Shown piece by piece: positions 35,449 to 36,349 of a DNA stretch of 64,000 nucleotides (position 1 is its first letter; the number at the start of each line of letters is the position of its first letter). This DNA comes from a bacterium. Its GTDB lineage: Bacteria > Patescibacteriota > Gracilibacteria > Peribacterales > Peribacteraceae. Below the pieces are notes generated by a model. It saw only the letters and a list, made by a program, of their open reading frames with translations, made no database searches and had not been told where the DNA came from. The position numbers and the translations under genes were made by a program. The stretch covers positions 1 to 64,000 of the forward strand of contig JAKQEM010000032.1 of NCBI GenBank assembly GCA_029558515.1, written 5' to 3'.

Positions 35449-35643
35449 TCATTCCTCAAATGAGAAAAGTTCATCGATGCTCACACCCAAAGTTGCGGCG
35501 ACAGTATGTGCAAGGAGAAGGGAAGGATTGTATTTCCCCTGCTCCAAAAACACGATCGTCTCGCGACGCACCCCGACGACTTTCGCCAACTGTTCCTGCG
35601 TCATGCCTTTCCCTGTCCTGAGCTCACGGATGCGGTTATGCAT
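35449..35643 (-). CDS. XRE-family HTH regulator (YozG-like)
   Basis: 64 residues from ATG 35643. Compact [42 protein letters not shown] then [17 protein letters not shown], the pattern of single-domain XRE regulators of the YozG/YgzD group. A longer upstream frame is out of pattern. It overlaps the 3' end of the preceding membrane protein gene by 8 nt, and such pairs of DUF2178-type membrane protein with this HTH are common, suggesting the membrane protein modulates or depends on the regulator. Confidence 0.88.
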
Positions 35644-36022
35644 GGAGAGAACGGCGACGAAGGATCGAAACAAGAGCGGAATAGAGCAACATGATGCCGC
35701 ACGTCGAGTAGGCGAGCACGGAAGCAATGACGGCAAAATGGATGTTGCGTTCCTGATAGGCATACAGCACAAACATGCACAGCACGGCACCGAGACTGAA
35801 AATTTGGACTGTCCAGCGCGCGGCAGTGCCGCTTAGCGCATCATCACGCTCATCGGCAATCACCTCTCTGACGCGGCGGCGCAGGAAGAAAAGCACAAGA
35901 ATCGCAACGATGATGGCAACAACGGGCCAGAAGTACTCCTGGCGCACAACGGACGATGAAACGAACGCAGCGAGCAGCATGACGATGATGATGCGGGCAA
36001 CGGTGTACTGCTTGAGAGACAT
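35636..36022 (-). CDS. DUF2178-like membrane protein
   Basis: 128 residues from ATG 36022, preceded by cttccccatctccc. Four hydrophobic helices: ~7-25 ([19 protein letters not shown]), ~31-48 ([17 protein letters not shown]), ~74-95 ([16 protein letters not shown]) and ~101-122 ([20 protein letters not shown]), with the conserved R-x4-ADERD-type loop ([13 protein letters not shown]) between helices two and three that is typical of DUF2178. Operon with the HTH regulator. Role: probably a membrane partner of that regulator. Confidence 0.8.
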
Positions 36023-36201: not shown

Positions 36202-36222
36202 AAAAAAGCGACCGAAGCCGCT
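36202..36222 (-). terminator. Rho-independent terminator with UUCG tetraloop
   Basis: On the minus strand agcggc-ttcg-gtcgct followed by six T. It closes a very short transcription unit starting near 36313. Confidence 0.85.
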
Positions 36223-36252
36223 CTTTCCTTTGAGTTGGGAATGGAGAACTGC

Positions 36253-36291
36253 TTAGCAGCAGCCACCACAGCAACCGTCGCCACCGATCAT
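36253..36291 (-). CDS. 12-residue Cys/Gly peptide
   Basis: ATG to TAA ORF encoding MIGGDGCCGGCC. It is too short for gene finders but sits in a complete unit: sigma-70 promoter (36321-36349), a leader whose last part is ctttctccctttcct immediately before the ATG (the window's usual start signature), and a terminator 30 nt after the stop. The two CC pairs separated by GG could bind a metal, or the peptide could be a leader whose translation matters. Alternatively the transcript is an untranslated small RNA and the ORF is chance. No family known to me. Confidence 0.45.
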   Translation of the reverse strand: MIGGDGCCGGCC

Positions 36292-36320
36292 AGGAAAGGG
36301 AGAAAGGAAGTAGGATCGCA

Positions 36321-36349
36321 ATGATAGCAGATGCCCCTTCCCATGTCTA
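36321..36349 (-). promoter_or_regulatory. Sigma-70 promoter of the tiny transcription unit
   Basis: Minus strand -35 tagaca (36349-36344), 17-nt spacer, -10 tatcat (36326-36321): 5/6 matches to each consensus hexamer at optimal spacing. Predicted start near 36313, about 20 nt before the ATG at 36291. Confidence 0.6.

Follow-up and report, generated by a model that had tools for sequence, protein, structure and literature searches.

Positions 36373-36199 (minus strand) of the window, the 64,000-nucleotide stretch of DNA analysed here, raise the question whether a transcription unit of this size is a micro-gene for a 12-residue peptide with a metal-binding or signalling role or a small RNA with a leader peptide, an either/or which the first-pass annotation had left undecided. 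In the source genome (1.31 Mb, 99% complete), an operator, a promoter, a pyrimidine leader, an ORF encoding MIGGDGCCGGCC and a UUCG terminator follow one another in this order. From sequence evidence, the unit is very probably a translated micropeptide gene, with translation being inferred in the absence of transcript, ribosome-profiling or peptide data.

Architecture of the micro-gene and its putative operator

The decisive clue, absent from the first-pass annotation, is a CIRCE-like inverted repeat at 36373-36347 on the minus strand (TTTTCACTC-TTCCTCTGA-GAGTGCTAG), which was found directly in the sequence and by pattern match in the own genome and the family and is considered a putative HrcA operator. 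CIRCE, the operator recognised by the heat-shock repressor HrcA, has the consensus TTAGCACTC-N9-GAGTGCTAA (PMC8762339, PMC545781), to which the window copy TTTTCACTC-N9-GAGTGCTAG conforms in 15 of 18 arm bases; its arms show three mismatches, and those of many homologues are closer to the consensus. The end of the right arm is overlapped by the -35 box (TAGACA, 36349-36344) of a sigma-70-type promoter at 36349-36321 (minus strand), in which a spacer of 17 nt leads to the -10 box (TATCAT, 36326-36321) with an extended -10 TG, giving 10 of 12 consensus matches. The position of the -35 box relative to CIRCE recurs in homologues. In the 34 CIRCE-linked copies used for analysing promoter geometry (G012 and G096 were left out), it lies, counted from the first base of CACTC, exactly at +20 (TAGACA) or +10 (TTGAGA/TTGCGA), and intermediate positions were not found in this set. 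These two registers are 10 bp, i.e., one helical turn, apart, as would be expected if HrcA must occupy the same promoter face. The ATG follows at 68-83 nt from CIRCE in homologues.

Downstream of the promoter, the minus strand bears the transcription start region and the pyrimidine-rich leader CCTACTTCCTTTCTCCCTTTCCT (36320-36292, start inferred at about 36314), followed by the micro-ORF of 12 codons plus stop at 36291-36253 (ATG ATC GGT GGC GAC GGT TGC TGT GGT GGC TGC TGC TAA) and an intrinsic terminator at 36230-36199, for which RNA folding predicts a 14-bp stem, a UUCG loop and a T run. The fold of the 119-nt RNA amounts to -38.5 kcal/mol (z = -3.0), with the terminator contributing most. 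A simple terminator scan did not list this hairpin, probably due to its stem reaching into the T run. Terminators are present in 35 of 44 homologues at 9-52 nt past the stop codon. The near-consensus promoter with 17-nt spacing, the ORF with its stop and the UUCG-capped terminator with T run, all noticed in the first-pass annotation, are thereby borne out. Its pyrimidine-rich leader is present as well, whereas calling it typical of starts in this DNA is an understatement: the pyrimidine share in the 25 nt upstream of the start reaches 83% in micro-genes compared to 60% in the 38 long ORFs of the window and 51% in random sequence. Leaders of the homologues are devoid of Shine-Dalgarno-like motifs. 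Independently of the micro-gene, such a motif was found within 20 nt before the first ATG in only 1 of the 38 long ORFs of the window (start codons not curated), which, together with the pyrimidine enrichment of their leaders, is suggestive of a non-Shine-Dalgarno initiation mode for these ORFs.

The upstream neighbour at 37262-36435 on the same strand is pyrK, encoding the dihydroorotate dehydrogenase electron-transfer subunit (NCBIfam NF000796, E=1e-79), a conserved syntenic landmark adjoining the micro-gene in most homologues. Directly 3' of the micro-gene, a two-gene unit on the minus strand (35449-36022) encodes a DUF2178 membrane protein and then a short XRE-type helix-turn-helix regulator; the DUF2178 gene is the next same-strand gene, starting about 180 nt past the terminator and possessing its own promoter-like site. 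Searching the window against Rfam gave a tRNA as the single match and no RNA family at the micro-gene.

Beyond the micro-gene, pattern matching in the own genome located CIRCE at dnaK (divergent to an obgE-like gene), clpB and clpC and at one site inside an ORF. HrcA is encoded in this genome (PF01628, E=1.3e-20) and, including the latter, in 68 of the 74 family genomes, at least 70 of which have CIRCE, with sites upstream of dnaK, clpC, clpB, groES, hsp20 and hrcA. In 36 of the 44 genomes carrying the micro-ORF, the element is found upstream of it. The sequence of the operator, its overlap with a sigma-70 promoter, the encoded HrcA and the placement of dnaK, clpB and clpC under this element in the source genome all agree with the classic HrcA/CIRCE regulon. 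In contrast, the known members of the latter are chaperones, proteases and their regulators, and a Gly/Cys peptide of 8-29 residues as a member was not found in the open literature searched. While gene structure, conservation, CIRCE with its regular spacing and the HrcA gene can be read from the sequence, HrcA binding and heat induction are inferred without expression or binding data; control of the micro-gene by HrcA in this genome can nevertheless be assumed with good confidence. Separately, an obgE-like GTPase gene was observed to diverge from dnaK with CIRCE lying in between (L321, at about 1500) and, as this arrangement is repeated in several genera, obgE may share HrcA control.

Occurrence in the family and probable selection on the peptide

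When 59 relatives were first searched at the DNA level, similarity to the leader and ORF was seen in three other genera, each with the same layout and with MIGG-starting, Cys-rich products, namely MIGGESGCGGCC, MIGGGKGGCGGCCGYTGGGGCCGC and the tandem pair MIGGNDGQSCGC and MIGGDEGGCCDGCK, all ending in a stop codon. The tandem pair represents a duplicate of the micro-gene (L005, 583-800), with a terminator for each copy and CIRCE kept by the first copy only. MIGG is not conserved, however, and a pattern search anchored on it was discarded as family finder, since it missed most members and returned several unrelated ORFs. For the census, CIRCE sites in the family were read without assuming a peptide (not every site was covered), and the DNA downstream of pyrK was inspected in genomes without a CIRCE-linked copy. 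Orthology was judged by position and architecture, as the peptides are too short and diverge too fast to be aligned.

In this way, equivalents of the micro-ORF were found in at least 44 of 74 Peribacteraceae genomes and at least 23 of 40 genera, mostly directly 3' of pyrK and on the pyrK strand. The 44 peptides, among them MIFDDEKQGGCCGGCCS, MFTDGDGCGCGH, MSTGPGSCCGFGPGGCCSFGPGCGGGGCC, MSGGSGSCC and MTGPGCGC, comprise 8-29 residues with 2-7 Cys and, with the start Met disregarded, contain 43% Gly and 24% Cys. About 30 family genomes lack a detected copy, some of them being incomplete or without detectable pyrK, and the micro-gene is consequently not essential family-wide. In one genus, related micro-ORFs bearing Cys, Asn and His but no CIRCE were observed (MSDGHCNCLGGGRCNCKKCNCS and MSGEHCNCGFSGGGHC; L275 at 2475 and L271 at 3179, genomes G089 and G034). 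Outside the family, scanning GTDB contigs for GCACTC-N9-GAGTGCTAGACA gave 99 loci, with micro-ORFs being seen only on contigs labelled Peribacteria or Peregrinibacteria, many of which stem from genomes already included in the census, a scan blind to other promoters and positions; other loci concern dnaJ, groES, hrcA or other genes. Likewise, no micro-ORF was detected at the pyrK loci of 14 genomes from other families of the class, where copies elsewhere would be invisible.

In two genera (five genomes: G004, G085, G086, G079 and G019), CIRCE is replaced by a promoter with a palindrome near TTAGTTTAGTACTAAACTA / TTGACAATTAGTTTAGTACTAAACTA in the spacer between the -35 and -10 boxes (L265 at 2590-2771, L266, L268, L282 and L283). 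In four of these five genomes, the exact palindrome pattern occurs only once, at the micro-gene, which points to a so far unidentified repressor that is dedicated or of narrow range. As the same product is placed under a different palindromic element in these two genera, the regulator is exchangeable, with the peptide as the constant.

None of 6,800 dinucleotide shuffles produced a Gly/Cys ORF with the expected spacing, and 31,273 random windows contained none apart from the real copies, which excludes chance. Moreover, the 24-aa peptides of the close relatives G081 and G083 are identical despite three synonymous differences in their codons, and G065 and G066 differ in one residue at 5.5 synonymous changes. 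Pooling independent close pairs (18.5 synonymous and 15.5 non-synonymous differences) resulted in pS 0.30, pN 0.08 and pN/pS of about 0.26. Owing to small numbers and low-complexity sequences, these values support rather than prove purifying selection on the peptide.

Alternative explanations for the transcription unit

The predicted transcript of about 115 nt, its strong terminator and the conserved pyrimidine leader motif could be expected of an HrcA-regulated small RNA or a dual-function RNA, with the ORF being incidental or secondary. It is the coding part, however, that has been kept: in-frame Gly/Cys sequences extend across 23 genera, synonymous changes occur and length varies by whole codons, with no RNA covariation data beyond the terminator. 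This explanation is therefore considered very improbable, with a dual-function RNA not being excluded. The first-pass annotation had proposed distinguishing peptide from RNA by conservation in relatives, and the outcome favors its micro-gene option: although the nucleotide sequences have diverged, 23 genera share the composition and frame of the peptide, its start context, the promoter geometry and the terminator, and close pairs differ mainly synonymously. Its option of a small RNA with a leader peptide, on the other hand, is not sustained, as conservation lies in the peptide and many genomes have no same-strand gene downstream. The latter also bears on a Cys-codon leader peptide by which ribosome stalling would control the terminator and a downstream operon. 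Such transcription or translation attenuation would suit a short Cys-codon-rich ORF with a terminator close behind, and mycobacterial polycysteine leaderless short ORFs (Canestrari et al., 2020, as described in PMC9031893) are likewise very short and carry runs of Cys codons. Those ORFs, however, regulate a downstream operon, whereas the micro-gene unit is closed by its terminator and often followed by a convergent gene. An attenuator requires a co-directional gene past the terminator, but 13 sampled loci share a gene convergent to the micro-gene and thus offer no target on the strand of the latter, at other loci unrelated genes come next, and the DUF2178 gene of the window is set apart by its distance and promoter-like site. 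Attenuation was accordingly rejected as hardly tenable.

A precursor of a modified natural product, be it a microcin-B17-like thiazole peptide, another RiPP or a secreted signal, was contemplated in view of the Gly/Ser/Cys-rich composition, which resembles the core of microcin B17. Precursors of microcin B17 and other TOMMs share such stretches with the micropeptide, but the latter lacks a signal peptide as well as a leader as long as those of RiPPs and has no YcaO cyclodehydratase at its disposal; YcaO, the sole RiPP enzyme searched, is encoded in just 1 of the 74 family genomes and is absent from the other 73, including the source genome, and the constant neighbour is pyrK. A microcin/TOMM precursor was consequently dismissed, and a modified product in general has very little in its favor. 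The main alternative to thiol action is a real HrcA-controlled peptide which binds a chaperone, a protease or a Zn-binding partner, for example, as adaptor or tag of ClpC or DnaK. The operator shared with dnaK, clpB and clpC in this genome would be in line with this role, whereas a specific protein interface is hard to reconcile with Gly/Cys as the only conserved motif and with fast turnover of length and sequence. Partner binding is considered unlikely, albeit deserving far more weight than the explanations discussed above.

Possible thiol function

Returning to a translated peptide acting via its thiols, the following sequence of events is proposed. At rest, CIRCE-bound HrcA would cover the -35 box. 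Since HrcA is released from CIRCE under proteotoxic stress (PMC8762339), misfolded protein or other proteotoxic stress inactivating HrcA would result in the mRNA of about 115 nt being made alongside the dnaK, clpB and clpC mRNAs. Translation via the pyrimidine-rich non-Shine-Dalgarno leader would then let the Gly/Cys peptide accumulate. Flexible, near-neutral and equipped with 2-7 closely spaced thiols, it might serve as throw-away thiol buffer or as chelator of soft metals (Cu/Zn/Cd/As), shielding cysteine-rich proteins in stress. As a whole, the statement of an HrcA-repressed, stress-released and translated Gly/Cys micropeptide acting most likely via thiols has about an even chance of being correct. 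Its thiol/metal part is a hypothesis from composition alone, untested and somewhat more doubtful. The metal binding envisaged in the first-pass annotation is accordingly a plausible but untested guess, and for the signalling role offered beside it there is no evidence. The CCGGCC of MIGGDGCCGGCC conforms to CCXXCC, the motif of biarsenical (FlAsH) tags; some family peptides, however, possess two Cys only, which is few for a metallothionein-like chelator.

With metallothioneins and phytochelatins, the micropeptides have in common a very high Cys content, small size, the lack of a hydrophobic core and a predicted induction by stress. They differ in being far shorter and Gly-dominated, often with 2-4 Cys, and in that metal binding has not been demonstrated; furthermore, phytochelatins are made enzymatically and not ribosomally, whereas the micropeptide is encoded by an ORF. 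Eight longer peptides gave no match at E<=1 in Pfam/NCBIfam, including the metallothionein families (the 12-mer is too short to be scanned), and no PDB sequence match was obtained for the longer peptides. A description of a Gly/Cys micropeptide family was not found in the literature searched, which was restricted to open-licence papers. The product has no known family and its function is unproven, while the regulon itself is classic. Rather speculatively, the peptide could be a ribosomally encoded, heat-shock-induced low-molecular-weight thiol, taking the role of glutathione or phytochelatin elsewhere in thiol buffering and soft-metal capture, with length and sequence hardly constrained as long as Gly and Cys stay.

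The findings indicate a conserved protein-coding family of just 8-29 codons, i.e., too short to pass the length threshold of routine gene calling, inside a well-known regulon, and searches anchored on CIRCE can expose micro-genes overlooked by protein annotation. Since expression can be predicted from the operator and the peptide can be synthesised at low cost, function is directly testable even though the hosts are uncultured. Peribacteria have an unusually Cys-rich proteome (PMC4736985), which provides a context for thiol protection. If the thiol role proves true, the peptide would represent a small thiol encoded by a gene of its own.
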